Both the position numbers and the translations under genes were made by a program. From Hydractinia symbiolongicarpus (lineage: Eukaryota > Cnidaria > Hydrozoa > Anthoathecata > Hydractiniidae): a DNA stretch of 64,000 nt. The DNA is taken from NCBI RefSeq assembly GCF_029227915.1, contig NC_079875.1, positions 14,383,001 through 14,447,000 of the forward strand, given 5' to 3'. The notes beneath the pieces were generated by a model. It was not told where the DNA came from and made no database searches. It saw only the letters and a program-made list of their open reading frames with translations. This document shows, piece after piece, positions 17,234 through 63,016 of this stretch; the first letter of the stretch is position 1, and every line of letters starts with the position of its first letter.

Positions 17234-17527
17234 CTATATTATAATACCTGTAAACGTCTGTCTGTCACGCAAAATGAATAAATGAATAATTAATAAAATG
17301 AACGTATATACATACATTTATTCATAGCGACAAAATAGCACCGTGCGTGATCCATTGGACACATTGTCCAATTTGTATGCGTAACCTGCAAAGTAATGAA
17401 AAATAATATTAGTTAAATCTGCTCCTTTCACGATTCTGAATAGTATTGCTTAATTATTTATGCAGAACATAATGCAGATAAGTGATACTAGGTACATCTG
17501 TAAATGTTTATCAAATTAGCATAGACA

Positions 17528-19973: not shown

Positions 19974-20067
19974 CTTTTGGGACATGGAAGCAATCACCCT
20001 TTTCCAAGTCAATGAAAACTTTTTCTGATAAATTTATCCTGACATCCCCATCAATCGCATAAAATGA
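19974..20067 (-). CDS. Cupin exon, C-terminal half (CENP-C/Mif2-like)
   Basis: A 94-nt exon with acceptor TTTTCTAG and donor GTAAAG. Starting in phase 0 it encodes 31 residues beginning SFYAIDGDVRINL and ending LEKGDCFHVPK, leaving one nucleotide for the next codon. The pattern [FY]-Y-x-hydrophobic-x-G-D-V, an alternating beta stretch, then G-D-x-F-x-V-P is the hallmark of the C-terminal cupin of CENP-C/Mif2, which dimerises the protein at the inner kinetochore. It follows directly in phase from the exon at 22840. The expected last strand (G-N-x-Y-x-I-x-N in the family) is on a further exon not found in the window. Other RmlC-like cupins are the alternative reading. Confidence 0.65.
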
Positions 20068-20885: not shown

Positions 20886-20889
20886 AGAA

Positions 20890-21955: not shown

Positions 21956-22196
21956 GTCAAACCTTCGCACCGATTAAATACAAACGATCTGTTGTTTCCG
22001 GGATGGTCTGCAGAATTTACAACTCATGCAGCACACAGGCAAACGTTCACGAAAGTCTGAACAAGGCAAAAACGATACTTGAACATAACCAATACCCTGC
22101 TTCGTTCTATAACCCTATCATTGAAAAGACATCAGACAAGATCATGCACTGAAAAAAGAGACAGAGATCTAAGAGCACGAGACGAGCAAGAACAAA

Positions 22197-22606
22197 TTGA
22201 TTTTTCTTCAATATAGGGGAAAAGTCACTGATAATTTTGAACGTTGCCTTAGACAAATAGATGCTCCCTGTAAAGTGATCTCAACAATACGAAAGGTTCA
22301 ATCCATCCTTCCCTCACTCAAAACACCTGTAGAGGAATTGTTCAAAAGTCACGTAGTCTACCAAATCACATGTTCACGATGTCAGTCGTGCTATGTTGGG
22401 CAGACAGCTCGACATTTGATTACGCGATTAAAGAACATATTCAAGAGGGAAAACCTGTGAAAATGCATTTTAATTCATGTAAAGTGCAACCTTCTTTTAG
22501 TGCTATAAAAATAATTGACTCCCACAGTAATGTGTTTAAATTAATGACTCAGGAAGCTCTCCATATGAAGCTATTAAAACCTTCAATAAACACAAGGGAT
22601 GAGTAA
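22197..22606 (+). pseudogene. GIY-YIG endonuclease domain of the Penelope-like element
   Basis: Two overlapping frames together give the domain: CRQ-type linker, then VVYQITCSRCQSCYVGQTAR, and after a frameshift near 22430 the continuation EHIQEGKPVKMHFNSC. The Cys-x2-Cys-x2-Cys followed by YVGQT is typical of the GIY-YIG nuclease fused to Penelope reverse transcriptases, which nicks the target DNA. The TGA at 22604 closes the frame. Confidence 0.8.
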
Positions 22607-22839: not shown

Positions 22840-22991
22840 GATATCTTTTTGGGCATAGAGGAACCCCTTTTCGCCATATTCCATGAGATAGATATGCCCT
22901 AGAGTACCCTTGGGTGTCACCAATGCTGGTGACACCCACGCGGCCATACTCAAATGCGACAGTTCTTTTGCCATAGTTTTTTTACCATACA
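22840..22991 (-). CDS. Cupin exon, N-terminal half (CENP-C/Mif2-like)
   Basis: A 152-nt exon with acceptor ACATTTAG and donor GTAAGTTTT. After two nucleotides completing a split codon it encodes 50 residues, starting YGKKTMAKELSHLSM, with a middle VTPKGTLGHIYL and ending GFLYAQKDI in phase 0. Joined to the exon at 19974 it reads KDI-SFYAIDGDV. This gives the family pattern of a first beta strand (G-x-L/I), a polar loop, then D-I/F-x-F-Y-x-x-x-G-D. That order matches the region just before and into the CENP-C cupin. A methionine inside could start a shorter product, but the upstream exon at 24196 is in phase. Confidence 0.65.
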
Positions 22992-24195: not shown

Positions 24196-24229
24196 ATGGC
24201 TTATATGGTTGCTTTTCACACGATGCTGC
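24196..24229 (-). CDS. 34-nt exon of the cupin gene
   Basis: Acceptor TTCTTACAG, donor GTAAGTTTA, both close to consensus. Phase 0 at its start and one nucleotide over at its end, encoding AASCEKQPYKP plus T, which completes a leucine codon with the TG of the exon at 22840. Open only in a way that fits the next exon, which supports it. No domain recognised. Confidence 0.6.
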
Positions 24230-28156: not shown

Positions 28157-28182
28157 ATCAATAAACGAGTCATCAATTATAT
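28157..28182 (-). CDS. 26-nt acidic micro-exon
   Basis: Acceptor TTTTTATTTAG and donor GTAAGTTTTT, both strong. It starts with two nucleotides of a split codon (phase 1) and ends in phase 0, encoding IIDDSFID. It is one of the few exons here that changes phase, converting the phase-1 chain upstream into the phase-0 junction downstream. Confidence 0.6.
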
Positions 28183-29058: not shown

Positions 29059-29091
29059 CTGTGGTTTCGAAGTCAGAGTTGTTTTGAACAT
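29059..29091 (-). CDS. 33-nt micro-exon, phase 1-1
   Basis: Acceptor ATTCTTTTAG and donor GTATATTTC. In phase 1 it encodes VQNNSDFETT with split codons on both sides; joined to the next exon it reads ETT-D-IIDDSFID, an acidic serine/threonine stretch. It is also open in phase 0. Phase 1 is chosen because both neighbours require it. Confidence 0.6.
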
Positions 29092-29842: not shown

Positions 29843-29860
29843 TAAACATTGGTTTGTTAT
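29843..29860 (-). CDS. 18-nt micro-exon, phase 1-1
   Basis: Acceptor TTTTTTTCAG and donor GTAAGTATAG, both near-consensus. In phase 1 it encodes NKPMF with split codons at both borders. Strong signals make it one of the better single micro-exon calls outside the arrays. Confidence 0.6.
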
Positions 29861-30202: not shown

Positions 30203-30229
30203 CAGTTTGCTGGTCAACGAGTTTCATTT
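30203..30229 (-). CDS. 27-nt micro-exon, phase 1-1
   Basis: Acceptor TTTTTCTTTATAG and donor GTAAATTGAT. Of the three phases only phase 1 is free of stops, encoding MKLVDQQT. It joins as QQT-D-NKPMF to the exon at 29843. It sits 125 bp from the end of the TA-target transposon. Confidence 0.6.
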
Positions 30230-35757: not shown

Positions 35758-35802
35758 CATGCGTCAGTTCCTTCCCTATTCTTCCAGGTAGAATATCCAA
35801 AT
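35758..35802 (-). CDS. 45-nt exon, phase 1-1
   Basis: Acceptor AAATCTAAAAG-complement reads CTTTTAG and the donor is GTAATTTTTT. Phase 1, encoding LDILPGRIGKELTH with split codons at both ends. It joins in frame to the exon at 35917 (NST-Y-LDILPG). No family motif. Confidence 0.55.
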
Positions 35803-35916: not shown

Positions 35917-35952
35917 ATGTGCTATTTTTTGACCTTTCTCTGAGTATTTCAG
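35917..35952 (-). CDS. 36-nt exon, phase 1-1
   Basis: Acceptor TTTGTTATAG and a strong donor GTAAGTTTTT. Phase 1 gives EILRERSKNST. Joined to 38442 it reads MSL-A-EILRERSKNST. Only 115 bp of intron separates it from the next exon. Confidence 0.6.
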
Positions 35953-38441: not shown

Positions 38442-38495
38442 CCAAGCTCATGTTGTTTTCTCTCCCGGAAGGAGGCAACATAATCTGCTCGTCCA
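38442..38495 (-). CDS. 54-nt exon at the 3' border of micro-exon array 1
   Basis: Acceptor TCTATTTTAG and donor GTACGTTTTG. Phase 1 encodes DEQIMLPPSGRENNMSL with split codons at both ends. Phase 0 has a stop, while phase 2 is also open. Phase 1 is chosen because all array micro-exons upstream and the exon at 35917 downstream require it. It is the first unique exon after the repeated ones. Confidence 0.6.
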
Positions 38496-38869: not shown

Positions 38870-38893
38870 CTTCTGGCACCACTGCTGTTGTGA
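38870..38893 (-). CDS. 24-nt micro-exon (TTAVVPE), copy 1
   Basis: Acceptor TTTTTATTCTAG after a pyrimidine tract, donor GTTAGTTC. Phase 1-1: split valine codon, TTAVVPE, then G. Phase 0 is also open, but sister families exclude it. Confidence 0.6.
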
Positions 38894-39178
38894 CTAGAAT
38901 AAAAAGGATGAAGACATTAAAACGATGAGTTAAGACAAAAGCAAACAAAACTATGCTTTGTTATAGTAGGCCATTATTGTGTGACAACAGACAAGACGTA
39001 ACCTACAATACCTACAATACTTATGTTTGCAGATTATCTGTTTAGAGTTTTTTATTTTGAAGAAAAATCGTTAAAGTGACTCTTAAAATAACTGAAGAAA
39101 ATGGGTAAAAAAAAACATTTTTCCCCCTGACAGTAACCATAACATGCAGCTACCGCAAATACAAGTGTAAGAGCTCAC

Positions 39179-39196
39179 CTACACTCTGCCTTTTGC
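39179..39196 (-). CDS. 18-nt micro-exon a (KRQSV), copy 1
   Basis: Acceptor CTTCTTATCTTTTTAG and strong donor GTGAGCTC. Phase 1 reads KRQSV flanked by split glycine codons. Phase 0 ends in TAG. Confidence 0.6.
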   Translation of the reverse strand, partial: AKGRV

Positions 39197-39411
39197 CTAA
39201 AAAGATAAGAAGGAAAAACCTTGATATTTTCATAGATTTTTTAAAGGGGTAAATATTAGATTCAGTCTCACTGATACTTCAAATTCTTAAATGTTCAAAG
39301 AACTTGAAATAACTAGAGGAAGTTCTGTTTTCACGTTATACTTAGGATGTATTTTCTGTTTCACACTACAATTAACATGCTGCTAACTTAAATACAAGTG
39401 CAAAGGCTCAC

Positions 39412-39429
39412 CTACGCTCTTCCTTTTCC
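39412..39429 (-). CDS. 18-nt micro-exon b (KRKSV), copy 1
   Basis: Acceptor TTAATTATTTTTAG, donor GTGAGCC. Phase 1 reads KRKSV. It is a paralogue of micro-exon a, differing mainly in Q to K. Confidence 0.6.
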   Translation of the reverse strand, partial: GKGRA

Positions 39430-39463
39430 CTAAAAATAATTAAATAGGAATGTAAAAAATTAT

Positions 39464-39481
39464 CTAAGCTCTTTGTTGTCT
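39464..39481 (-). pseudogene. Micro-exon copy with lost donor
   Basis: Eighteen nucleotides, open in phase 1 (TTKSL) and with an acceptor-like TTTTTAAG, but followed by ATAATT instead of GT. The same sequence recurs at 41464-41481. Confidence 0.45.
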
Positions 39482-39899
39482 CTTAAAAAGACTATAAGGA
39501 AAAACAGTAAATATTTCCAATGACTTTTTGAATAAGCTAACTACATCCCTTACTTAAAGCAAGGGTAAAATTGGATTTAGTCTTACTTATACTTCGTATT
39601 TCGAAGATGTTGGTATAAATATATGTTTATCCTTATACGCAACAACATTTTAGATATTAAAGAGCAACATGCGAAGTTATGTTCACAGTGAAGTTGACTC
39701 TTGTATGCCGCGAACACTAACAGCCAAATTATAGTCATGTTGTCATCATTTACATACAATTTTTGAAGATTAGAATAAAGATTTTCCATTAAAAGAAACT
39801 TTTATTCAAATCAACTATCTTCCTAACAAAATAATAATAGGAAAAGTGCAACACACTTGACTAAAGGCAGTTGTGCAGAATAAAAAGGCAAGAATTAAC

Positions 39900-39929
39900 C
39901 TTTAATTTTGGGTACATCTGTTTTGGCAA
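39900..39929 (-). CDS. 30-nt micro-exon a (AKTDVPKIK), copy 1
   Basis: Acceptor CCATTCCATTTTAG, donor GTTAATTC. Phase 1 encodes AKTDVPKIK between split codons. Phase 2 contains TAA. Confidence 0.6.
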
Positions 39930-40054
39930 CTAAAATGGAATGGATAAAGACATCAATGAAACGTTAAGAATAGAATAACAAAATAATGCCTGCAGGAAAA
40001 GTGCAACACACTTGACTAAAGGCAGTTGTGCAAAATAATAAGGCAAGAACTAAC

Positions 40055-40084
40055 CGTTAATTTTGGGAACTTCCGTTTCTGCGA
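40055..40084 (-). CDS. 30-nt micro-exon b (AETEVPKIN), copy 1
   Basis: Acceptor CCATTCCATTTTAG, donor GTTAGTTC. Phase 1 encodes AETEVPKIN, a paralogue of micro-exon a with charge changes (K to E, D to E, K to N). The two lie 125 bp apart. Confidence 0.6.
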
Positions 40085-40478
40085 CTAAAATGGAATGGAT
40101 AAAGACATCAATGAAATGTCAAGTTAAAACAATGCAACAAAACCATCCTTTGTTATAGTAGGTCATCATTGTGCGAAAACAGACAAGGCGCAACTAACAC
40201 TCAACACCTACAACACTTATTTTAAAAATTATCAGACTGGAGGAAAACAGTCTTGCATTTGTTTACACATAACATTGACTTATGTTCACTGTCTCATCCC
40301 ACGAAAACCTTGCTGCGTAATTGCAGATACAACTACAAAAACAGAAATGGCAAAACTTATCTAAGCTCCTGTTTTCTCTTAAAAAGATTTAGAAAAAACG
40401 ATAAAAAACAATTAAAGTGACATTAAGAATAGAATAACTAGGGGAAGTTGTACAGAATGATATACAGCAAGAACTAAC

Positions 40479-40502
40479 CTTCTGGCACCACTGCTGTTGT
40501 AA
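40479..40502 (-). CDS. 24-nt micro-exon (TTAVVPE), copy 2
   Basis: Same borders as copy 1. One base differs (second position of the exon, C to T), which falls in the third position of the split valine codon and is silent. Confidence 0.6.
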
Positions 40503-40891
40503 CTAGAATAAAATGGACGAAGACATTAAAACGATGGGTTAGGACAAAAGCAAACAAAACTATGCTTTGTTATAGTAGGCCATTATTGTGTTACAACAGA
40601 CAAGACTTAACCTACAAGACCTATAATACTTATTTTAAAAATTATCGGACTGGAGGAAAACAGTCTTGCATTTGTTTATACATAACATTGACTTATGTTC
40701 ACTGTCTCATCCCACAAGAAGCATACTGCGTAATTGCAGATACAACTACAAAAACAGAAATGGCAAAACTTATCTAAGCTCTTGTTTTCTCTTAAAAAGA
40801 TTTAGAAAAAACGATAAAAAACAATTAAAGTGACAATAAGAATAGAATAACTAGGGGAAGTTGTACAGAATGATATAGAGCAAGAACTAAC

Positions 40892-40915
40892 CTTCTGGCA
40901 CCACTGCTGTTGTGA
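40892..40915 (-). CDS. 24-nt micro-exon (TTAVVPE), copy 3
   Basis: Identical exon to copy 1, 413 bp from copy 2, forming a local extra duplication of the 24-nt unit. Confidence 0.6.
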
Positions 40916-41179
40916 CTAGAATAAAATGGATGAAGACATTAAAACGATGGGTTAGGACAAAAGCAAACAAAACTATGCTTTGTTATAGTAGGCCATTATT
41001 GTGTGACAATAGACAAGACTTAACCTACAATACTTATGTTTTCAGATTATCTGTCTAGAGTTTTTTATTTTGAAGAAAAATCGTTAAAGTGACTCTTAAA
41101 ATAACTGAAGAAAATGGTTTTTTTCCCCTGACAGTAACTATAACATGCTGCTACCGCAAATACAAGTGTAAGAGCTCAC

Positions 41180-41197
41180 CTACACTCTGCCTTTTGC
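41180..41197 (-). CDS. 18-nt micro-exon a (KRQSV), copy 2
   Basis: Identical exon and borders to 39179-39196, 2001 bp away. Confidence 0.6.
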   Translation of the reverse strand, partial: AKGRV

Positions 41198-41411
41198 CTA
41201 AAAAGATAAGAAGGAAAAAACTTATATTTTCATAGATTTTTTAAAGGGGTAAATAATAGATTCAGTCTCATTGATACTTCAAATTCTTAAATGTTCAAAG
41301 AACTTGAAATAACTAGAGGAAGTTCTGTTTTTACGTTATACTTAGGATGTATTTTCTGTTTCACACTACAATTAACATGCTGCTAACTTAAATACAAGTT
41401 TAAAGGCTCAC

Positions 41412-41429
41412 CTACGCTCTTCCTTTTCC
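41412..41429 (-). CDS. 18-nt micro-exon b (KRKSV), copy 2
   Basis: Identical exon to 39412-39429, exactly 2000 bp away. Confidence 0.6.
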   Translation of the reverse strand, partial: GKGRA

Positions 41430-41899
41430 CTAAAAATAATTAAATAGGAATGTAAAAAATTATCTAAGCTCTTTGTTGTCTCTTAAAAAGACTATAAGGA
41501 AAAACAGTAAATATTTCCAATGACTTTTTGAATAAGCTAACTACATCCCTTACTTAAAGCAAGGGTAAAATTGGATTTAGTCTTACTTATACTTCGTATT
41601 TCGAAGATGTTGGTATAAATATATGTTTATCCTTATACGCAACAACATTTTAGATATTAAAGAGCAACATGCGAAGTTATGTTCACAGTGAAGTTGACTC
41701 TTGTATGCCGCGAACACTAACAGCCAAATTATAGTCATGTTGTCATCATTTACATACAATTTTTGAAGATTAGAATAAAGATTTTCCATTAAAAGAAACT
41801 TTTATTCAAATCAACTATCTTCCTAACAAAATAATAATAGGAAAAGTGCAACACACTTGACTAAAGGCAGTTGTGCAGAATAAAAAGGCAAGAATTAAC

Positions 41900-41929
41900 C
41901 TTTAATTTTGGGTACATCTGTTTTGGCAA
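41900..41929 (-). CDS. 30-nt micro-exon a (AKTDVPKIK), copy 2
   Basis: Identical exon to 39900-39929, exactly 2000 bp away. Confidence 0.6.
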
Positions 41930-42054
41930 CTAAAATGGAATGGATAAAGACATCAATGAAACGTTAAGAATAGAATAACAAAATAATGCCTTCAGGAAAA
42001 GTGCAACACACTTGACTAAAGGCAGTTGTGCAAAATAATAAGGCAAGAACTAAC

Positions 42055-42084
42055 CGTTAATTTTGGGAACTTCTGTTTCCGCGA
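42055..42084 (-). CDS. 30-nt micro-exon b (AETEVPKIN), copy 2
   Basis: Differs from 40055-40084 at two bases, both third codon positions in phase 1 (GCA/GCG and ACG/ACA), so the peptide is unchanged. Confidence 0.6.
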
Positions 42085-42369
42085 CTAAAATGGAATGGAT
42101 AAAGACATCAATGAAATGTCAAGTTAAAACAATGCAACAAAACCATCCTTTGTTATAGTAGGTCATGATTGTGTGACAACAGACAAGACTTGATCTACAA
42201 TACCTACAATACTTATGTTTGCAGATTATCTGTCTAGAGTTTTTTATTTTGAAGAAAAATTGTTAAAGTGACTCTTAAAATAACTGAAGAAAATGGGTGA
42301 AAAAAAACATTTTTCCCCTGACAGTAACTATAACATGCTGCTACCACAAATACAAGTGTAAGAGCTCAC

Positions 42370-42387
42370 CTACGCTCTGCCTTTTGC
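42370..42387 (-). CDS. 18-nt micro-exon a (KRQSV), copy 3
   Basis: Differs from the other copies at one base, AGT to AGC, silent for serine in phase 1. Donor GTGAGCTC is kept. The acceptor is TTATCATTTTAG. Confidence 0.6.
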   Translation of the reverse strand, partial: AKGRA

Positions 42388-42603
42388 CTAAAATGATAAG
42401 AAGGAAAAACCTTAGATATTTTCATAGATTTTTTAAAGGGTTAAATATTAGATTCAGTCTCACTGATACTTCAAATTCTTAAATGTTCAAAGAACTTGAA
42501 ATAACTAGAGGAAGTTCTGTTTTCACGTTATGCTTAAGATGTATTTTCTGTTTCACACTACAATTAACATGCTGCTAATTTAAATACAAGTGTAAAGGCT
42601 CAC

Positions 42604-42621
42604 CTACGCTCTTCCTTTTCC
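42604..42621 (-). CDS. 18-nt micro-exon b (KRKSV), copy 3
   Basis: Identical exon to the other b copies. The acceptor is preceded by TTAATTGTTTTTAG. Confidence 0.6.
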   Translation of the reverse strand, partial: GKGRA

Positions 42622-42842
42622 CTAAAAACAATTAAACAGGAATGTAAAAAATTATCTAAGCTCTTTGTTGTCTCTTAAAAAGACTATAAGGAAAAACGGT
42701 AAATATTTCCAATGACTTTTTGAATAAGCTAACTACATCCCTTACTTAAAGCAAGGGTAAAATTGGATTTAGTCTTACTTATACTTCGTATTGCGAAGAT
42801 GCTGGTATAAATATGTGTTTATCCTTATACGCAACAACATTT

Positions 42843-42873
42843 TTTAATTTTGGGAACTTCCGTTTTTGCGACA
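42843..42873 (-). pseudogene. Decayed 30-nt micro-exon b
   Basis: Clear homology to micro-exon b, but the acceptor AG is changed to TG, the donor is lost and an internal base is altered. It marks the junction of a deletion between modules. Confidence 0.6.
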
Positions 42874-43203
42874 AAAATGGAATGGATAAAGACATCAAGA
42901 AATGTCAAGTTAAAACAATGCAACAAAACCATGCTTCGTTATAGTAGGTCATTATTGTGTGAAAACAGACAAGACGCAACTAACACTCAACACCTACATC
43001 ACTTATTTTAAAAATTATCGGACTAAAGGAAAACAGTCTTGCATTTGTTTATACATAACATTGACTTATGTTCACTGTTCTCATCCCATGAAAACCATGC
43101 TGCGTAAATGCAGATAGAAAAAACGATAAAAAACAATTAAAGTTACATTAAGAACAGAATTACTAGGGGAAGTTGTACAGAATGATATACAGCAAAAACT
43201 AAC

Positions 43204-43227
43204 CTTCTGGCACCACTGCTGTTGTGA
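43204..43227 (-). CDS. 24-nt micro-exon (TTAVVPE), copy 4
   Basis: Same exon as copy 1 with acceptor TTTATTTTAG and donor GTTAGTTT. It is the most upstream intact micro-exon of array 1. Confidence 0.6.
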
Positions 43228-44363: not shown

Positions 44364-44411
44364 AAAATGACGTATATTGAAACCGTTCGGGTGGTTTTCT
44401 TTTCCTAGTTG
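44364..44411 (-). CDS. 48-nt basic exon upstream of array 1
   Basis: Acceptor TTTTTTTAG and donor GTAAGTGC, both strong. Phase 1 encodes TRKRKPPERFQYTSF. Phase 0 is also open, but phase 1 is needed by the array. The KR-rich start could be part of a nuclear localisation signal. The pattern R-K-R-K-P-P-x-x-F recalls the core of the CENP-C motif but lacks its conserved tryptophan and following residues, so I do not assign it. Confidence 0.55.
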
Positions 44412-47400
44412 CTAAAAAAATTTATTAAAAAAAGTATTTTACAGGAAATTATTAAAATTTTCATGGACAGTATATGGTACCAAATAAAAAAATATATTTA
44501 CATTTTCTTAATACCACAGAGTCACACGATTGTTCGGAATCTGAAACTAGATGTTAAAAAAATTATTAAATAAATGTGTTAAACTAATTTGCCTTAACAC
44601 CATCTATAACACCTCTCCCAAGAAAAATAATGATATGGACAATCACAGAGGAAATTTTTATTTGTACAGTAAAAACTATTGAAAAAAACTTTATTGACCT
44701 AAGCTATGATTTTCAACAATGCTTTTGTTTTTGTTAAAGCATCATAATATTTGTTTTACTCATTAAGAATTATGTCAATGCATGTTTTCCTTTTTTTTAT
44801 GCATGTTCCTTGCTACAAAATACACGCAAAAATAGAACACAAGAACTTGGTTGACCTAAATGAAATTTTTAGCAGTGCTTCCATTTTCGTTGGTGCATAA
44901 CATTTTTTCTTCTCAAAATTAAGTCAATGACTTATGTTGTTTTTTCCAACGCCTTCTTTATGCATTTTTCTTGCTGAAAGATTAAAGTTTCTATATATAC
45001 AGAGGTGTGGCACCCGAGGATTAAATATGCTGATATCAGCATCAAAAATCTTAAAATCATAAGACAAAACCACATTTTTTCATTATATTGGAATTTGTGA
45101 ACGAGACGCAACTAAATTTTGCGGTGGGAAGCTAAGGAATCACTGCCTGGAACTGAAGACATGCAAGGAAATGCTATGAGTAGTACAAGAGAAAGAAGAG
45201 GAAGCTCTAAATATTTTTTTTTTCATTTGATTTACAAGAATTTGAGGTACCACACAATGAGAAGTAAAGAACAGAAACGCCTTTCTTATATTTATTTTAA
45301 GCTACGTATACGCATTTTAAGCTACATAGGACTATGCCAGCACTCCAGGGGCATTAAATAAGTAAGTGATAAAATACAAGTAATAGGCACCAATATATAT
45401 TATTTTTTATGTAGCTAGTTACATAAACGATTTTTCAAGGTATTCTGTCATTTCAAGTAAGATAGATACCTAGATATTTAGACCTCCCATTTGGACCTCC
45501 TATAGCAGTGAAGACTTGAGTATATAGGTAGTTAGTTAGGTATACAAAGTATTGCATGTTGTCAGGACAAACACAAACCTATATTTCATAAATAAATTTC
45601 TGCAAATGTCCAGGTTTCTTTTATCAAACAGAAACCTATTTTTCAAATTGCTGTAGATTTTTAGGTTTCTTTTATGAAATAACATAATTTGGCAAAGTAT
45701 TCACTTGGAGCGGGAAGACCCAAAGTCTCTATCCAGGTTAAAACTTAGTACAGGGTAAACTGTGTCACACGGAGGACACTTATATAATGTGTTGCAAATC
45801 CAGTGGAGCACTTATAGCATTAAAGGTATAATATATTATTCATAAACCAACTATTGTTCCTTCTGCAAAGCAAATACAGTTGTTTAGCATTTTTCATTTT
45901 GCATAAGTTCCTGTGGATATTCCAAAATTATTTGTGGGTGTTGCAGATCCAGGTGAACATAAAATACCGTTCACTTTGTTTTTATATGGCAAAAAAATTT
46001 GATTATGCTTCAAAATCACATTCCCACTTTTTCTGAGATGGATAAGGTATTTGGTCTTAAACTGGGCCAAATTTTATCTGTTTGAATTATTTTAATCCTG
46101 AGAATCCTTTGAATGTTTTCTGTACACGTGGCTTGTCAAAATTGATATGCTTTAAAGAACAGTTTATCGGAGTCTCCGAAAATGGCTAAATTCAGGAACA
46201 CAGAAACTATGTGGTAGTAAGTTTCAAGTCATTATTTCAATTTCTACTGAAGTAATAGGACTTTTACTTAGTACAGTTTTGGCATAGTTTTTCATACCGC
46301 TGACACCAAAATGACTGCAGGGATTTTTTTAAAAAGTTGTTGCATAGCTTAAATGACATTAGGATAAGGACGGAAAAGTTACGGTGGGACTTGGGTTTTA
46401 AACCTTCCCTGCAAGAAATTTTAAAAATAATAAATCACAAAATTGCAAAAGTTTATCTTAAAAATTTTTAATTTTGGTTAATGTGAAAGTAATCCACATG
46501 AAAAAGTTTCTCATGTTTTTTATGAAAAAATCTTCCATATTACCCATATAGGGTAACTTGATGAACAATGAATTTTCAACTTAAGCTTTGACTTTTGACC
46601 CAGCTAAAAAGGTTGGTTTTGTCTTTTCATACTTAGAGGTTGTTGACACGTGAAATCTAATCCGGGATGAGTTCATGCCTGTCTCTAGTGAAAATCCTCA
46701 CAGCATTTACATGCTTAAGGCCGGAAAAAAATATGAAGTAAGAGGTTGGTTGTAACTTTTTTTGTTAATTTATATATCTTCAAAGTTTTTTATATATTCA
46801 TCTTTATATTATTCGATCATCGATCATGGTTCTTATGTTTTTATACGAGAAAGTGTTTTAAAGTTGCACACCATTTTAATGTTATGCCTGCTGTATAAAA
46901 TGATGTTGTCTGTTTACTTCGACAATTATTTATTTTATTATCTATTTTTATATCTATATCTAGCCAATGTTTTGTTTCTAGCAAAAACAGCTTCTCTCAG
47001 AAGAATTGATTGTTTCTATGTTGCTCTGCTAGTTGTATTAATAATACTACTAGCCGAAGTCCAGTGGAAGAATCCACTGAACACAGTAATTTGAATTTTT
47101 TTAAAAGTCACAATTTGCATTATTCTATATCTATAACCGCTGAAACAAAACGTCCAAATAATAAGCATGTGCGGCAATAAAAAAATAAAAATAAAAGAGA
47201 AAAAAAGCACAGGGATTGAGGTTGCTTACAATCTCCATTATTATACTTATACCCGCTGAAACAAAACGGTAAAATATAAGCAGGTTCAACAATAAAATAA
47301 AAATAATTTAAAATAAAAATGCAGAAGGTCTAACACAATCGAAGATGTCTCACAACGGTTATGTAAAAAGCTAAATCTGCAAAAACTATATACTTGCTCT

Positions 47401-50400: not shown

Positions 50401-51528
50401 ACTTAAAGTCCCAAGAATTAATAATGTCAAAGGAATTACAAAAGGTTAAAAAAATTACATTGACAGGGAATTCAATACGAAAACCTAATGTGTGCTGCCA
50501 ATCACATGCATAATAAACACATATTTAAAATTTTAAATGTGCAATATTTGATTATAATGTAAGAGATTTGTTATTTTTCCCTCTAAAATTGAAATAAACT
50601 TTTGAAGACTATTTTTTACCTAAAAGAAAGGGCTTTGGAACATGTTGGAGTTTCACCACTATTGGTAAGAGGGTTACTATTTGCCATAACAGAGCAGACA
50701 CTCGATATGCATAAGATTTTTCAATTTAAGGCTCAAAACATGCTTGAAATAATTTTGTCTTGGTACACAAAGAGTAGGAGAAAAAAATAAATTTCAAACT
50801 TGAATGATAAGCCATTAAATTCAAGGCAAACAAAGAAAAAATTAATTCTAAACCTTAATCATGGAAATTTTTACTCACCACACGAACTTTGGGCCTCATG
50901 TGTAATCTAAATGTAAATACCCTAAATGTTAAATGTTTTTCATATAATTTAATAAAAATTCGGTTCTGACCGTTGCAATTAATTAATTAATTTTCACATG
51001 CAATTCAGTGCTGATCAGGACAAATTCTCCAGGTAAGAGAAAAATTTATTAAAGTTTACACATACCATTTCTTTAGGATGTTGACTGCATTCATCCTAAA
51101 ATGAAACAAGATGTATGATATACGTAACCTCGCAAATAAAGTTTACAAAAGAGCTGTCTATCAGATTCTGATTTCTGTTACTATGTTAGATACAACATAT
51201 TTTGCTATTCAGATAGGCAATAATATTTGTTACACACTATGCGGTTATTTTTTAAAATTGATTTGTGAGATCTTCTTGAACCACAAAATTCCTAGAAATT
51301 TTAATTTTCAATTGGTCAGTCTGGGGTAAACTGACTGACAGGAAGAAGAAAGACCACAAGCCCTACCTAAAGTTTGCGAAATTTAGGAAATTTAGTACAC
51401 TCCACAAAAAAAGAATGGGTATATAAGAGAGTCACTCAGTGAGAAAAAGCAAAATAAAAAAAATAATATACGAGAAATCTTAATTGTTCGAAATATATTA
51501 CCAGAACTGTCACAAACAACAAACTTCA
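44412..51528. other. Intergenic or long intron, few features
   Basis: About 7 kb with no convincing exon on either strand. The ORFs at 45119-45361 and 46762-47094 show AT-driven composition and no motif. Within it, 47127-47200 and 47243-47313 are related AT-rich repeats sharing CCGCTGAAACAAAAC and a CAATAAAAATAAAA-like tail, possibly ends of a short interspersed element. Confidence 0.5.
49437..49516. repeat. Short direct and inverted repeats
   Basis: GTGAAAATATGCTGATTTCA occurs twice, about 51 bp apart. The second copy continues into a perfect palindrome, ATATGCTGAT-TTC-ATCAGCATAT (49494-49516). CATCCTGGGATGAGAT-like words surround it. Probably the core of a degraded fold-back element. Confidence 0.6.
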
Positions 51529-51531
51529 TTA

Positions 51532-51577
51532 AGGCCAATATCCACACACGGAAAACGTTCCGCGGACCGGACCGGAT
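51532..51577 (+). repeat. Harbinger left terminal inverted repeat
   Basis: 46 bp, GC-rich (CCGCGGACCGGACCGGAT at its inner end), identical to the complement of 54312-54357. Confidence 0.95.
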
Positions 51578-51771
51578 CAAACGAAAACAAAGCTTTGCGC
51601 ATGCTCATTGTTAGTTCATTGCGCAATCAAAACGGAAAATTGTCCGGTCCAGAAGCCAGAAGAAAGTTGAAATGTTTTCAACTTTTTTTCTGATCCGCGG
51701 AGCGACTAGCATTTTTGACCAATAACAAGCTACAAAAAAATAATCACGTGATATCAACAAACCACCAGAGC

Positions 51772-52259
51772 ATGCTCAAATCAAAAATGGCGCAGCAACA
51801 AACAGCAGAGCAGCATGCTGCTATGGAAGATGAAAATGCAGCACAAATGCTAAGTTATGCTTGGCAATTACAACAACTTGGTCGGTTTAACATAAGCATG
51901 GCTAACGATGAAGCGTCTCAAGCTCCCACAGTTCCTCTGAGTTTCCAGCGAAGACATATATCAAACCCCAACACTTCATCATCATCAAGCAACAACAACA
52001 ACAACAACAATGTCTTGCTGTTGTCATCACCAGAATCTACTGCAACTTTTACCACCCCTTCTTTAGCACCTCAAATTCAGACTGAGGTTGATAAGGGTGA
52101 CGAGGAAGTCGATTCTAACTTTCTTGAAGTGTCACTTGCTTCTAGAATTGTGGATATAATGCCTAGCTATCCTTGTCTGTGGAAAACTAATCAAAGGTCA
52201 TACAAAGATATTAACAAAAAAGATCAAGCCTGGACTGAAATATCAGCTGGGGGCATCTG
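51772..52259 (+). CDS. Harbinger MADF-BESS protein, exon 1
   Basis: From the first ATG (51772; a second is at 51787) the frame gives an N-terminal glutamine/alanine region, a serine-asparagine run (SSSSSNNNNNNN), an acidic linker, and from about residue 123 the first half of a MADF domain: LASRIVDIMPSYPCLW, then DQAWTEIS. MADF proteins of Harbinger elements bind the terminal repeats and bring the transposase to nuclear DNA. The exon ends at donor GTAAGATT (52260). In this frame it ends with two spare bases and would read a stop directly after splicing, whereas exon 2 expects one spare base. Reading the last bases in the next frame gives LGAS-VEKIKYDW, the normal MADF continuation. A one-base indel between about 52235 and 52250 therefore probably disables this gene. 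Confidence 0.8.
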
Positions 52260-52362
52260 GTAAGATTTTTTTGTTCAGTTCCCTATGGAAGACATGTGCA
52301 AAATTAATTTCAGTTGATAGATTAGCTATATTAATTTTGCTTTAATGTTTGTTTTGTTTTAG

Positions 52363-52862
52363 TTGAAAAAATCAAATATGATTGGTCAAAAATACGAGAA
52401 AATTATCGCAAGTGCTTGAAAAAGAGAGACGCGAGAACGAAATCTGGTGCAGGATATGACAAGCTGCCCACTTGTAATTTTTTTAAAGAACTTAGATTTC
52501 TGTCAGACTCATTGAGCAACAAGGTAACAGATAGCAACATTTTAAACAGTGATAGTGGTAGTGTGATTGATGTAGCTAGCAGCGAAACCAGTGAAGTTTC
52601 GGATGATGTTATAATATCGAACAAATGTAAAAAAAAAAAAAGGAGTAATGATGATGCTCAAATTAGTTTAATTGATGCTGCTCTCCTTCAAACGTTAAAC
52701 AAAGTAAACGAGAAACCGAATGCAAGACGTGAAGAGACAGATCCCGACACTCTGTTTTGTTTGAGTTTAGTGTCATCCTTATCAGCATTAACACCACAAC
52801 AAAATGCTCTAGCTAAGCTGAAGCTTCAGCAGGTACTTTATGACATTAAGTATGCTGCATAG
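52363..52862 (+). CDS. Harbinger MADF-BESS protein, exon 2
   Basis: After acceptor TTTTGTTTTAG the frame finishes the MADF domain (VEKIKYDWSKIRENYRKC), continues into a basic KSGAGYDKLPTC segment and a serine/acidic linker with a lysine cluster (KCKKKKRS), and ends with a BESS-type motif: DTLFCLSLVSSLSALTPQQ followed by a helix and the stop TAG 52860-52862. BESS motifs mediate protein-protein contacts. The gene is convergent with the transposase, 86 bp apart. Exon 2 itself is intact. Confidence 0.8.
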
Positions 52863-52948
52863 AAAGACACGTAAACAAACTTTGTTCTTATTGCTTTTGT
52901 TTTGTGTACATATTTACATCCTTGTATTATATATAAATATATATGTCG

Positions 52949-54223
52949 TTAATTGTCTGCATCAAAATCATCAGAAGTCTTATGTGTGTATTCCCATTGC
53001 CAAGGTACTGATCCAATTTGAGAGTTAAAATAATCACAGAATTTATCTCTTACAACTTTTGCATCATTTGTATAATTGTTAGATCCTACTCTTGGTATGT
53101 CTACTAAGCCTTTATATCCATCAATTTCTTGTCGCCATTGACCCTGCCTTGTTTTTGTATCTGCTAAGCCAGGGGGACAATACCCATTGTCATAGATTAA
53201 AAAATTATGCAAAGACACAGCTGCCTTTGTGACAATTTTAACATTTTCAGGCGAACTGATAATTGGTCTTCTGAACAACCTAAACCTTGATGCCATAATT
53301 CCAAAAGAGTTTTCAATAACTCTTCTAGCTCGCGAAATCCGATAATTACATATTCGTTTTGTATCATCTAGCACAGCTCGTGGGTATGGCTTTACTAAAT
53401 TTACTTTCAGGGGAAAAGCTTCGTCCCCAACTATAACATAAGGCACGACTTGTGAACTATGAGGTAAAGGACAAGGTGCAGGGAAGTTTAATGAATTACT
53501 GGTAATGGCCTGACCAATATTGCTAGCTGCAAAAACGCTACCATCGCTTTCTCTGCCACTGTCCCCAATGTCAACTAACGTAAATTCGTATCTAGAGTTA
53601 CAGATAGCCATCAGCACAATACTGTGCGTTTTCTTGTAATTAAAGTACGATGATCCTGAGCGCGGGGGTGCTTGCATAACAATGTGTTTTCCATCAATTG
53701 CACCAACACAATTTGGAAAGTTCCATTCCTGTTCAAACCCCTCGGCAATTTGTAACCATTCTTCTTCCAAATTTGGTGCTTTTATGTAGTCGTGCTCGAG
53801 TAATTTTTCCCAAATTGCCTCGCATGTTTCTTTAATAATTCGTCCTACTGTCGAAATTCCTACGCGATAGCTACTTGAAATTGTAACGTGAGAATCACCA
53901 GTTGATAAGTATCTTAGTGTAATACACAATCTTTCAGAAGGACCTATGGGCTCACGTGCTGCAGTAGTAGATTTCGTTATAAATGGGGCTATGAGGTTGA
54001 GAAGTTCTTCGTATCTTGTAGGAGACATACGAAACTGTTTGTAAAAAAATTCATGATCATGGATCCTAAGTTCTTGAATTAATTGATGATATTCTCCTTT
54101 CGCCTTTCTTTCCAAAAATATTTTTCTTACCCACATCCTATGTTTACGCTTATGTGAATGTGTTACTTGCAGTTGACGTTTTTTAATTAGAAGAACTAGA
54201 AGAAGCACATGGTTTTCATCCAT
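52949..54223 (-). CDS. PIF/Harbinger DDE transposase (HARBI1-like)
   Basis: A single 424-residue ORF without breaks, the usual length for the family. A basic N-terminus (about residues 14-45) and a helix-turn-helix-like region with VGISTVGRIIKETCEAIW (121-138) precede the DDE_Tnp_4 nuclease fold. This shows CVGAIDGKHI with D177, VDIGDSG with D218 and D221, VIVGDEAFPL with D267, and RVIENSFGI with E304, fitting an RNase-H-like catalytic core for cut-and-paste transposition at TWA sites. Its C-terminal tail is acidic. ATG 54221-54223 is the first in frame, 88 bp inside the right terminal repeat. It looks functional by sequence, although its MADF partner here seems frameshifted. Confidence 0.95.
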   Translation of the reverse strand: MDENHVLLLVLLIKKRQLQVTHSHKRKHRMWVRKIFLERKAKGEYHQLIQELRIHDHEFFYKQFRMSPTRYEELLNLIAPFITKSTTAAREPIGPSERLCITLRYLSTGDSHVTISSSYRVGISTVGRIIKETCEAIWEKLLEHDYIKAPNLEEEWLQIAEGFEQEWNFPNCVGAIDGKHIVMQAPPRSGSSYFNYKKTHSIVLMAICNSRYEFTLVDIGDSGRESDGSVFAASNIGQAITSNSLNFPAPCPLPHSSQVVPYVIVGDEAFPLKVNLVKPYPRAVLDDTKRICNYRISRARRVIENSFGIMASRFRLFRRPIISSPENVKIVTKAAVSLHNFLIYDNGYCPPGLADTKTRQGQWRQEIDGYKGLVDIPRVGSNNYTNDAKVVRDKFCDYFNSQIGSVPWQWEYTHKTSDDFDADN

Positions 54224-54311
54224 GTTGTTATTATTGTCGTAGCAACGTAAAAACTAATTTTCGTTCTTCGACGTACTGGAACGGAACGGACTGGAACAGA
54301 TTTTTATCGTT

Positions 54312-54357
54312 ATCCGGTCCGGTCCGCGGAACGTTTTCCGTGTGTGGATATTGGCCT
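54312..54357 (-). repeat. Harbinger right terminal inverted repeat
   Basis: Exact inverted copy of 51532-51577, followed by the TTA duplication. Confidence 0.95.
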
Positions 54358-57892: not shown

Positions 57893-57931
57893 CTTTTCTC
57901 CTATTTGCCGCTAAAATACTCCTATTATCCG
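57893..57931 (-). CDS. 39-nt micro-exon with tandem acceptors, copy 1
   Basis: Outer acceptor CCATCTTGTTATTTTAG gives a 39-nt exon. A second AG 21 nt inside (GTATTTTAG) gives an 18-nt exon. Donor GTAAGTTTA is strong. Both forms keep phase 1: the long form reads DNRSILAANRRK, the short one ANRRK. The two halves resemble each other (CGGATAATAGGAG and CGGCAAATAGGAG), so the exon itself arose by duplication. Confidence 0.5.
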
Positions 57932-58591
57932 CTAAAATAACAAGATGGAATAACGTCAAAAATAAGAATTAACTTATCAGCACCAATCACATAAAAACAT
58001 AGAGCTCTTCATAACCAAATTTTGCCTTAAGATTACAGTCAAATATTAACCTTGTGCTAAAGACACGCAAAATACTGACTAAGGATATAAGACGAACAAA
58101 AATTCCATAATACAGAAATGTGTATGATGGGTGAACACATAGATTTGCATTATGGGCTAACCTCTTAGTCACGAGCTGTATTATAAAGCTATGAAACAGT
58201 TATGAGGGCTAAATCTGCCCTATGTGATATAGTACTTGTTCTTATTGTCTTCATACAGTCAATTTTGTTACCACTTTCTTGCAACTGCTGTTATCAAAAA
58301 ACAAAAGCGAAATACCTAGGAAACCTTTACACACAAGTACAAAAATAGTTTTGTTTGACAAACATTCATGATTTTCCAAATTATACCCTTCAAAATTTTC
58401 AGAAATTTTTTTCTGTCCCACTTAATACAATCTTGTGCGGCTAGGGTAATAAGTGGAGTAGTCAGTTCACAAAGATAAGAGCTTGTTCAGTCAAACCCCC
58501 TGCTGGCATAATTTGATCTCACTTTATGTTGACTGGGGTGGAGTCTTCATTTTCAAAAAACAAGACTAAAAGAGAATAAGAATAATCAAAC

Positions 58592-58618
58592 CTCCTTCCT
58601 GCCTCTCTGAACACAAAA
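58592..58618 (-). CDS. 27-nt micro-exon (LCSERQEG), type B
   Basis: As 57225 but with several amino-acid changes. Acceptor TTTTTTTTAG, donor GTTTGATT. Confidence 0.4.
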
Positions 58619-59259
58619 CTAAAAAAAATAAGAAAAATAGTTAAACCCCCTTGCCCGAGATAAACTGTGATTTGTGGTGCTGATGGCTAAATTTACCTAA
58701 GCTATTAAAAAAAGGACGCAAGGTTGCACAGGCAAGGTTTTTTTTGCAAAGGACCACTGCTTTGTCATTGCGAAAAAACCATTTACCATGTGCCAAGTTG
58801 AGTGGTTGATTACAGCCCTTAAGTTGTAGTGCTTGTGACAAGAGACTTCAATTTATACAGTGATAGGTACGCGGGTAAGATGTAACAGGAGAACAAATCT
58901 TACACACTAGATCTTTGTTACAGGCAAAACGCTATAACTGCAGAATTAAAAGTGAACTGCACTCTGCAACTTGTTTTTTCACTGCTGCAGTTTGATGATG
59001 AGTGTTAAATAATGTACCAAACGAAGAAAACGCTAATGACAACTCTGGTGTGATATATTCAAGAATCTCTAGCACAACCTACTGGGTGACCAGATTAAAA
59101 GTGCTACCCCTTTCATTAGAAATACAGGCTCTTATTGCATTAAAAACTTTCCAAACCTTCCACACACCTTCCAAACCAATGCCAGATTTAAAACTAAAAA
59201 GCCTTGTGATGTGGCAGTTGAAATAAAACAGTCAAATAAAAAAGGATAAATAAACTTAC

Positions 59260-59298
59260 CTTTTCTCCTATTTGCCGCTAAAATACTCCTATTATCCG
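59260..59298 (-). CDS. 39-nt micro-exon, copy 2
   Basis: Identical to 57893-57931, 1367 bp away, same tandem acceptors and donor. Confidence 0.5.
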
Positions 59299-59956
59299 CT
59301 AAAATAACAAGATGGAATAACGTCAAAAATAAGAATTAACTTATCAGCACCAATCACATAAAAACATAGAGCTCTTCATAACCAAATTTTGCCTTAAGAT
59401 TAGAGTCAAATATTAACCTTGTGCTAAAGACACGCAAAATACTGACTAAGGATATAAGACGAACAAAAATTCCATAATACAGAAATGTGTATGATGGGTG
59501 AACACATAGATTTGCATTATGGGCTAACCTCTTAGTCACGAGCTGTATTATAAAGCTATGAAACAGTTATGAGGGCTAAATCTGCCCTATGTGATATAGT
59601 ACTTGTTCTTATTGTCTTCATACAGTCAATTTTGTTACCACTTTCTTGCAACTGCTATTATCAAATAACATAAGCACAATACCTGGGAAACCTTTACACA
59701 CAAGTACAAAAATAGTTTTCTTTGACAAACATTCATGATTTTTGAAATTAAACCCTTTAAAATATTCAGAAATGTTTTTCTGTCCCACTTAATACAATCT
59801 TGTGCAGCTAGGGTAATAAGTGGAGTAGTCACTTCACAAGTTAAGAGCTCGTTCAGTCAAACCCCTTGCTGGCATAATTTGATTTTGCTTTATGTTGACT
59901 GGGGTGGAGTCTTCATTTTCAAAAACAAGACTAAAAAAGAATAAGAATAATCAAAC

Positions 59957-59983
59957 CTTCTTCCTGCCTCTCTGAAGACAATA
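59957..59983 (-). CDS. 27-nt micro-exon (LSSERQEE), copy 2, type A
   Basis: Identical to 57225-57251, 2732 bp away. Confidence 0.4.
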
Positions 59984-60624
59984 CTAAAATAAATAAAAAA
60001 AATAGTTAAACCCCCTTGCCCGAGATAAACTGTGATTTGTGGTGTTGATGGCTAAATTTACCTAAGCTATTAAAAAAAGGACGCAAGGTTGCACAGGCAA
60101 GGTTTTTTTTGCAAAGGACCACTGCTTTGTCATTGCGAAAAAACCATTTACCATGTGCCAAGTTGAGTGGTTGATTACAGCCCTTAAGTTGTAGTGCTTG
60201 TGACAAGAGACTTCAATTTATACAGTGATAGGTACGCGGGTAAGATGTAACAGGAGAACAAATCTTACACACTAGATCTTTGTTACAGGCAAAACGCTAT
60301 AACTGCAGAATCAAAAGTGAACTGCACTCTGCAACTTGTTTTTTCACTGCTGCAGTTTGATGATGAGTGTTAAATAATGTACCAAACGAAGAAAACGCTA
60401 ATGACAACTCTGGTGTGATATATTCAAGAATCTCTAGCACAACCTACTGGGTGACCAGATTAAAAGTGCTACCCCTTTCATTAGAAATACAGGCTCTTAT
60501 TGCATTAAAAACTTTCCAAACCTTCCACACACCTTCCAAACCAATGCCAGATTTAAAACTAAAAAGCCTTGTGATGTGGCAGTTGAAATAAAACAGTCAA
60601 ATAAAAAAGGATAAATAAACTTAC

Positions 60625-60663
60625 CTTTTCTCCTATTTGCCGCTAAAATACTCCTATTATCCG
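60625..60663 (-). CDS. 39-nt micro-exon, copy 3
   Basis: Identical to 57893-57931, 2732 bp away. Confidence 0.5.
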
Positions 60664-61323
60664 CTAAAATAACAAGATGGAATAACGTCAAAAATAAGAA
60701 TTAACTTATCAGCACCAATCACATAAAAACATAGAGCTCTTCATAACCAAATTTTGCCTTAAGATTACAGTCAAATATTAACCTTGTGCTAAAGACACGC
60801 AAAATACTGACTAAGGATATAAGACGAACAAAAATTCCATAATACAGAAATGTGTATGATGGGTGAACACATAGATTTGCATTATGGGCTAACCTCTTAG
60901 TCACGAGCTGTATTATAAAGCTATGAAACAGTTATGAGGGCTAAATCTGCCCTATGTGATATAGTACTTGTTCTTATTGTCTTCATACAGTCAATTTTGT
61001 TACCACTTTCTTGCAACTGCTGTTATCAAAAAACAAAAGCGAAATACCTAGGAAACCTTTACACACAAGTACAAAAATAGTTTTGTTTGACAAACATTCA
61101 TGATTTTCCAAATTATACCCTTCAAAATTTTCAGAAATTTTTTTCTGTCCCACTTAATACAATCTTGTGCGGCTAGGGTAATAAGTGGAGTAGTCAGTTC
61201 ACAAAGATAAGAGCTTGTTCAGTCAAACCCCCTGCTGGCATAATTTGATCTCACTTTATGTTGACTGGGGTGGAGTCTTCATTTTCAAAAAACAAGACTA
61301 AAAGAGAATAAGAATAATCAAAC

Positions 61324-61350
61324 CTCCTTCCTGCCTCTCTGAACACAAAA
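61324..61350 (-). CDS. 27-nt micro-exon (LCSERQEG), copy 2, type B
   Basis: Identical exon to 58592-58618, 2732 bp away. The unit that follows is shortened. Confidence 0.4.
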
Positions 61351-61610
61351 CTAAAAAAAATAAGAAATAGTTAAACCCCCTTGCTGCCATAAACTGTGAT
61401 TTGTGGTGCTGACGGCTAAATTTACCTACTGAGTGAACAGATTGAAAGTGCTACCCCTTTCATTAGAAATACAGGCTTTTATTGCATTAAGAGCCTTCTA
61501 AACCTTCCACACACCTTTCAAACCAATGCCAGATTTAGAATTAAAAAGCCTGATGTGATGTAGTAGTTGAAATAAAACAGTTTAATATAAAAGGAAGTCA
61601 ATAAACTTAC

Positions 61611-61649
61611 CTTTTCTCTTATTCACCGCTACATTACTCCTACTTTCCA
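61611..61649 (-). CDS. 39-nt micro-exon, diverged copy
   Basis: Eight or so substitutions relative to the other copies, yet both the outer acceptor TTGTTATTTTAG and the donor GTAAGTTT are kept. Phase 1 stays open (ESRSNVAVNKRK) while phase 0 of the short form gains a TGA. This is the best evidence that phase 1 is the real one in array 2. Confidence 0.5.
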
Positions 61650-62309
61650 CTAAAATAACAACAAGGAATAACGTCAAAAATAAGAATTAACTTCTCAGCA
61701 CCAATCACATAAAAACATAGAGCTCCCCATAACCAAATTTTGTCTTAAAATGACAGCCAAATCTCAACCTTGCGCTAAAGATGCGCAAAATGCTGACTGA
61801 GGATATAACACGGACAAAAATTCCATAATACAAAAATGTGTATGATGGGTGAACACATAGATTTGCATTATGGGCTAACGCCTTAGTCACGAGCTGTATT
61901 ATAAAGCTATGAAACAGTTATGAGGGCTAAATCTGCCCTATGTGATATAGTACTTGTTCTTATTGTCTTCATACAGTCAATTTTGTTACCACTTTCTTGC
62001 AACTGCTATTATCAAATAACATAAGCACAATACCTGGGAAACCTTTACACACAAGTACAAAAATAGTTTTCTTTGACAAACATTCATGATTTTTGAAATT
62101 AAACCCTTTAAAATATTCAGAAATGTTTTTCTGTCCCACTTAATACAATCTTGTGCAGCTAGGGTAATAAGTGGAGTAGTCACTTCACAAAGTTAAGAGC
62201 TCGTTCAGTCAAACCCCTTGCTGGCATAATTTGATTTTGCTTTATGTTGACTGGGGTGGAGTCTTCATTTTCAAAAAACAAGACTAAAAAAGAATAAGAA
62301 TAATCAAAC

Positions 62310-62336
62310 CTTCTTCCTGCCTCTCTGAAGACAATA
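62310..62336 (-). CDS. 27-nt micro-exon (LSSERQEE), copy 3, type A
   Basis: Identical to 57225-57251. Confidence 0.4.
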
Positions 62337-62977
62337 CTAAAATAAATAAAAAAAATAGTTAAACCCCCTTGCCCGAGATAAACTGTGATTTGTGGTGCTG
62401 ATGGCTAAATTTACCTAAGCTATTAAAAAAAGGACGCAAGGTTGCACAGGCAAGGTTTTTTTTGCAAAGGACCACTGCTTTGTCATTGCGAAAAAACCAT
62501 TTACCATGTGCCAAGTTGAGTGGTTGATTACAGCCCTTAAGTTGTAGTGCTTGTGACAAGAGACTTCAATTTATACAGTGATAGGTACGCGGGTAAGATG
62601 TAACAGGAGAACAAATCTTACACACTAGATCTTTGTTACAGGCAAAACGCTATAACTGCAGAATTAAAAGTGAACTGCACTCTGCAACTTGTTTTTTCAC
62701 TGCTGCAGTTTGATGATGAGTGTTAAATAATGTACCAAACGAAGAAAACGCTAATGACAACTCTGGTGTGATATATTCAAGAATCTCTAGCACAACCTAC
62801 TGGGTGACCAGATTAAAAGTGCTACCCCTTTCATTAGAAATACAGGCTCTTATTGCATTAAAAACTTTCCAAACCTTCCACACACCTTCCAAACCAATGC
62901 CAGATTTAAAACTAAAAAGCCTTGTGATGTGGCAGTTGAAATAAAACAGTCAAATAAAAAAGGATAAATAAACTTAC

Positions 62978-63016
62978 CTTTTCTCCTATTTGCCGCTAAA
63001 ATACTCCTATTATCCG
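62978..63016 (-). CDS. 39-nt micro-exon, copy 4
   Basis: Identical to 57893-57931. Confidence 0.5.

Follow-up and report, generated by a model that had tools for sequence, protein, structure and literature searches.

Tandemly repeated, putatively coding micro-exons of a CENP-C-like gene in the hydroid Hydractinia symbiolongicarpus

Results

A stretch of 64,000 nucleotides from the hydrozoan Hydractinia symbiolongicarpus (assembly GCF_029227915.1, contig NC_079875.1, positions 14,383,001 to 14,447,000) was analysed at full length and is called here the window, with positions counted from its first letter. Its minus strand carries a predicted gene, termed CENP-C-like below, that ends in a cupin and contains, at 43227-38870, a run of 14 intact micro-exons, which by type succeed one another as A D E B C D E A A B C D E A. 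The run holds four exons of 24 nucleotides (nt), four of 30 nt and six of 18 nt, all multiples of three, and every one has an AG acceptor behind a T-rich tract and a GT donor, that of type C (gttaat) being weak by a simple splice matrix (-0.5). When the frames were checked, the 18-nt exons had a stop in phase 0 and the 30-nt exons in phase 2, and phase 1 alone was open throughout. The exons, their borders and their sole common phase had been proposed in a first-pass annotation made from the letters alone, and were confirmed here at the same borders on the minus strand; the accompanying claim that the gene ends in a cupin also stood, as phase 1 runs through the flanking exons to a stop codon past the cupin domain.

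In the direction of transcription, the run starts with A1 (43204..43227; 24 nt; VTTAVVPE, with F as first residue when joined after the preceding exon, u2) and continues with D1 (42604..42621; 18 nt; GKRKSV), E1 (42370..42387; 18 nt; GKRQSV), B1 (42055..42084; 30 nt; VAETEVPKIN) and the micro-exon C1 (41900..41929; 30 nt; VAKTDVPKIK). These are followed by D2 (41412..41429), E2 (41180..41197), A2 (40892..40915), A3 (40479..40502), B2 (40055..40084), C2 (39900..39929), D3 (39412..39429), E3 (39179..39196) and A4 (38870..38893), each of the length of its type. All were placed by borders and phase except A3, a synonymous TC/TT variant placed by its borders and by comparison of variants. Between A1 and D1 lies a decayed type B copy (42842..42871, minus strand) in which neither border is intact, the acceptor reading ...ttttg and the GT donor being absent.

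The remaining exons were joined to the array through their phases, from 44.5 kb down to 17.3 kb and with no annotated protein yet consulted, giving an open model of 332 residues whose last three exons form the cupin. Upstream of the array lie u1 (44502..44546; 45 nt; VSDSEQSCDSVVLRK) and u2 (44364..44411; 48 nt), the latter encoding the basic segment TRKRKPPERFQYTSF, and downstream of it d1 (38442..38495; 54 nt; VDEQIMLPPSGRENNMSL), d2 (35917..35952; 36 nt), d3 (35758..35802; 45 nt), d4 (30203..30229; 27 nt), d5 (29843..29860; 18 nt) and d6 (29059..29091; 33 nt). These eight, among the 13 non-array exons of the model, are of phase 1-1 and at most 54 nt long. They are followed by d7 (28157..28182; 26 nt; phase 1-0), d8 (24196..24229; 34 nt; phase 0-1) and the cupin exons c1 (22840..22991; 152 nt), c2 (19974..20067; 94 nt) and c3 (17318..17385, including the stop codon).

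When the 332-residue model was compared with 1528 protein candidates, two matched with an E of 0.001 or less. Only one of them was convincing, namely NCBI 'uncharacterized protein LOC130644563 [Hydractinia symbiolongicarpus]', of 338 amino acids (aa), for which a match to PF11699 is precomputed; the other, a JGI record full of TDVP-like repeats with 36% identity over a quarter of the query, was set aside. With the cupin alone as query, no protein candidate came up, probably owing to limits on protein length. In LOC130644563, 612 of the 1014 coding nt belong to phase 1-1 exons of at most 54 nt, and 41 residues stand ahead of the array. From this protein the acceptor of u1 was set (residues VS), and two further minus-strand exons were placed: the putative first exon e1 (51066..51095), which reads GATGAATGCAGTCAACATCCTAAAGAAATG and then GT, with its last ATG fitting the LOC130644563 start and an in-frame TAG directly upstream, and e2 (50879..50906; ITHEAQSSC; phase 0-1).

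The cupin scored 32.5 bits against Pfam CENP-C_C (PF11699; cut-off 29), and 29.7 bits when the whole 332-residue model was used. Among solved structures, the three that match it best are all chains of CENP-C, headed by 7xhn_C ('Centromere protein C', 943 aa, E 1.3e-4), which we take to be the human protein. A CENP-A gene is reported in Hydractinia echinata (PMC5011920), and a CENP-C is therefore to be expected in the genus.

Several observations weigh against a CENP-C identity. The canonical CENP-C motif (RxxRxxxxPLxYW; PMC4830207) was not found, as neither of the two full patterns had a match in any of the six frames; within LOC130644563, 137 of 2000 shuffles equalled the best 14-residue candidate (RKSTRKRKPPERFQ, without YW), and 604 of 2000 equalled the best one of 23 residues. 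In addition, with 338 aa the protein is short, and a Pfam scan that began at u1, the only profile search bearing on this point, revealed no MIS12-binding part. An AlphaFold model of the LOC130644563 protein, computed without alignment, was uninformative (predicted local distance difference test score of 36). It is because the canonical motif was not found that the gene is termed CENP-C-like, and putative fish CENP-C proteins are described as likewise retaining the motif in part. A loose RRS.R pattern had one match in six frames, at a place other than this gene, and a motif candidate in u2 was dropped as not significant against shuffles. The u1-u2 peptide had no match among solved structures.

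These points leave a real, though clearly minor, chance that the cupin protein is a divergent relative and not a working CENP-C, in line with a score that exceeds the cut-off by 3.5 bits (0.7 bits for the longer model), the lack of the motif and the length of 338 aa. This is opposed by the identity of the three best solved relatives and by the distribution of c1 in the genome, where it has 17 matches: two are the present locus and a second copy of it described below, and the other 15 belong to clustered fragments or copies, several of them interrupted by stops. A six-frame search of the genome for the family gave no match, this gene included, and another split CENP-C gene could consequently escape such a search.

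As for these other matches, two clusters of tandem cupin-exon fragments, 73-79% identical and several with stops, are found on C4 at 1.79 Mb and 10.38 Mb, where a fragment of a kinetochore-like gene has become a local repeat. Their origin as mRNA retrocopies keeping spliced micro-exons was considered and rejected, as the spliced model matched c1, c2 and the edge of c3 only. Copies of c1 and c2 separated by about 147 nt, with an in-frame stop in c2, are present on C1 at 26.57 and 28.31 Mb, the former alone having a c3 copy as well, and these are probably pseudogenes of a relative.

A second copy of c1, 100% identical, lies on the same scaffold at C1:18039553-18039704, the two loci being 3.63 Mb apart. 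In this second copy of the locus there are 18 intact micro-exons, which by type read A D E A B C D B* C* D E A A B C D E A, and the exons of this copy with the first 13 of the 18 micro-exons reproduce LOC130644563 letter for letter, once the start codon and the u1 acceptor are set from LOC130644563 itself. The differences between the window and LOC130644563, first read as those of two species or alleles, were hence traced to this second copy. Since the micro-exon borders had been fixed before LOC130644563 was examined, an independent annotation uses the same borders, and the earlier impression that the phase 1-1 micro-exons look coding gains from this identity. RefSeq models in general draw on RNA-seq. 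Also left out of the annotated protein are a second-copy type E exon with a mutated acceptor (TTTTAA instead of TTTTAG) and the decayed type B copy, whose counterpart in the second copy (C1:18060936) is decayed too.

The remaining five of the 18 intact micro-exons are absent from LOC130644563, which could be taken as a sign that the array is a generator of diversity like the schistosome micro-exon genes, with many isoforms made by regulated skipping, and the phase 1-1 borders and lengths in multiples of three of all micro-exons would suit such a device. The five missing exons amount, however, to one repeat block, with three alternative omissions being equivalent, as if the assembly of the model had collapsed identical repeats, and a single isoform is annotated for LOC130644563. 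We regard this explanation as unlikely.

The substitution pattern was then compared. When the 32 micro-exons of both loci (14 + 18) were pooled, all six variable columns fell on codon position 3 of phase 1, the chance of which for one named phase is (1/3)^6 = 0.0014, and the four variable columns seen in the window are all synonymous in this phase, with a chance of about 0.012 counting transitions only. Between the two copies, the other coding exons differed at 2 of 738 positions vs. 388 of 32084 in the introns, gaps left out (Fisher p 0.015). Thus far the micro-exons look genuinely coding. Two results go the other way: two of the six variable columns, in B* and C*, alter the residue (N/K and D/E), and the micro-exons, with 2 differences in 324 positions, are not significantly less diverged than the array introns, with 68 in 5544 (p 0.44).

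This last comparison bears on an explanation that we rate at somewhat less than an even chance, namely that real exons, constitutively included, vary in number without functional effect, with a disordered linker tolerating drift in length through tandem duplication. It fits with near-identical copies varying in number and order between loci whose introns are 1.21% apart, with the persistence of decayed copies and with the lack of a significantly lower divergence in the micro-exons. Against it stand the confinement of all six variable columns to third positions and the synonymous nature of the four columns in the window.

To place the two loci, sampled places along the scaffold were compared, and a collinear recurrence was detected between 11.91 to 14.55 Mb and 15.5 to 18.18 Mb at an offset of 3.59-3.64 Mb. 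Fetched stretches align directly, mostly at 92-99.9%, and two scored probes gave 88% and 96%. The mismatches in introns between the copies (1.21%) lie near the heterozygosity of 1.33% published in PMC11067881, and together with the order kept by the sampled stretches and probes they suggest that the two loci are probably two haplotypes placed consecutively in the assembly, in which case 14 vs. 18 micro-exons would be an allelic difference. That both lie on one scaffold, 3.63 Mb apart, would also fit a recent megabase-sized duplication that made them true paralogues, a reading which we consider improbable in view of the same conserved order and of the closeness to the heterozygosity reported in that source.

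Within the collinear region, a PIF/Harbinger-like element (51533-54357) carries a DDE transposase open reading frame (ORF) at 52949-54253 on the minus strand and MADF and BESS ORFs at 51694-52862 on the plus strand. The element, which bears terminal inverted repeats, is absent from the second copy, where an empty site is found, and TTA appears to have been duplicated at the target. By its sequence it is a recent insertion difference, compatible with haplotypes or with paralogues. If the large collinear duplication on C1 corresponds to uncollapsed haplotypes, genes in it would be listed twice in the assembly.

The array itself bears the marks of repeated duplication. When flanks were included, types A and B were 72% similar, B and C 86%, and D and E 87%; these similarities among A, B and C and between D and E reduce the exons to about two ancestral ones, so that their lengths are not 14 independent facts. 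A tandem unit of 413 bp is present in 2.2 copies with 93% matches, a longer block is repeated about 2 kb onward at 93.5%, and sequence ahead of d1 (38599-38538) shows kinship with that ahead of A4 and of B1. When 351 bases of the array were searched against the genome, all 14 matches among the best-scored candidates fell at these two loci. As judged from these comparisons, about two ancestral modules gave rise to the exons by duplicating in tandem. Differences between the two loci involve entire blocks, the pattern expected of unequal crossing-over, which would be the cause of the growth of the array.

Further upstream, on the minus strand at 57893..63016, there is a candidate second array of five intact 39-nt intervals (63016-62978, 61649-61611, 60663-60625, 59298-59260 and 57931-57893), carried by units, each about 1 to 1.37 kb long, that are repeated in tandem between 56.3 and 64 kb, in which each interval stands between TTATTTTAG and GTAAGT; a decayed copy near 56572 ends the row. 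The intervals are open in phase 1 only, four of them reading ADNRSILAANRRK and one VESRSNVAVNKRK, and the fetched stretch of the second copy holds at least five more, which differ from those of the window (four AESRSIVAVNKRK and one AENRSILAANRRK). The variant unit differs at 8 of 39 sites in the exon vs. 15 to 24 of 236 in the flanks, with 7 of 13 residues changed, so the 39-nt exon is either fast evolving or not coding. Located 5' of the annotated start, this row does not contribute to the annotated protein, and its peptide had no protein match at E up to 10 in one search of proteins of about 222-705 aa. A second micro-exon array is a possible but uncertain reading of it.

Discussion

The borders, the common phase and the agreement with LOC130644563 make it likely that the run at this locus is a coding micro-exon series of a CENP-C-like gene of H. 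symbiolongicarpus, multiplied in tandem and encoding a basic segment. About two ancestral phase 1-1 micro-exons, one VAETEVPKIN/VTTAVVPE-like and the other GKR[KQ]SV, would have been multiplied, and because each length is a multiple of three and both borders are in phase 1, copies can be gained, lost, silenced or skipped without frameshift. Free skipping as such is weakly suggested by these features. In the gene model, the joined modules would form a basic segment that separates the C-terminal cupin from the basic exon u2. With full inclusion, the window copy would encode 108 residues with a net charge of +13, six R-x-S-V and eight VP[KE], and the second copy 142 residues with +17, compared to 102 residues and +12 for the array of LOC130644563; by module, the net charges are +3 (D), +2 (E), -1 (A), -1 (B), 0 (B*) and +2 (C and C*). 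By analogy with maize CENPC, this segment could act as a flexible linker touching centromeric DNA, RNA or nucleosomes. Mitotic kinase sites may be present in the R-[KQ]-S-V modules, in line with an Aurora-B-like consensus. The number of modules varies, probably between haplotypes, as would be expected under near neutrality or if it tracked fast-changing centromeres.

A more elaborate version, that we offer as speculation with low odds, is a kinetochore linker tunable in length and charge, where the allelic number of micro-exons and the skipping of blocks would set the count of basic, kinase-responsive GKR[KQ]SV modules per molecule, fast turnover would be driven by centromere conflict and the second upstream array would add optional modules.

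The duplication of exons in the CENP-C of grasses offers a better comparison for the putative linker than the schistosome genes. According to Talbert et al. (2004, PMC549713), an exon pair, acidic and basic, has been duplicated repeatedly in grasses, and Du et al. (2010, PMC2816676) describe the duplicated exons 9-12 of maize CENPC as its DNA/RNA-binding part. As far as these accounts go, in both systems neighbouring exons of a poorly conserved middle part have been duplicated in tandem and lost, apparently two types of module take turns, one of them basic, and copy numbers differ between close relatives. By the same accounts, the grass exons encode 25-38 residues, in contrast to 6-10 in Hydractinia, and rice has three tandem copies of one pair, whereas Hydractinia has 14 and 18 exons; moreover, DNA/RNA binding is shown in maize and would be a prediction for Hydractinia, an animal. 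The two duplications are presumed to be of independent origin.

The likeness to schistosome micro-exon genes (MEGs), put forward in the first-pass annotation, stands with respect to architecture: as described by Philippsen et al. (2015, PMC4350168), most of the coding sequence of MEGs lies in very small symmetrical exons whose skipping keeps the frame. It fails in other respects, as in that description every MEG product carries a signal peptide and the family appears confined to platyhelminths, whereas here the host is a cnidarian, the product is CENP-C-like and the N-terminus of LOC130644563 (MITHEAQSSCVSDSEQSCDS) showed no hydrophobic stretch by inspection.

Another kinetochore protein in which the number of a short motif varies and sets its behaviour is Spc105/KNL1 with its MELT motifs, as reported by Roy et al. 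(2020, PMC7292645); there the motifs bind Bub3-Bub1, and the likeness to Hydractinia would lie in the variable number of short motifs. In literature searches, outside of which most subscription journals lay, nothing was found that joins CENP-C and micro-exons or Hydractinia and CENP-C, and for tandem or duplicated micro-exons only plant gene families surfaced. For the MELT motifs, we know of no arrangement with one micro-exon per motif.

Exon duplication in CENP-C is thus known from grasses, and an animal seemingly does likewise with exons of 6-10 codons. The array may let a chromosome-segregation protein change quickly in length and charge, and the different numbers on the probable haplotypes would provide a laboratory animal for testing module number against centromere strength or meiotic drive. 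A long series of near-identical exons of 18-30 nt is demanding, too, for the splicing process and for those who annotate genes.

Other features of the locus

The intron between c1 and c2 contains putative pieces of a Penelope-like element (20500-22600) with reverse transcriptase and GIY-YIG similarity, both below the Pfam cut-offs. Downstream of the gene, a minisatellite of 38 bp in about 300 copies extends over 736-12380, and its counterpart in the second copy appears shorter.

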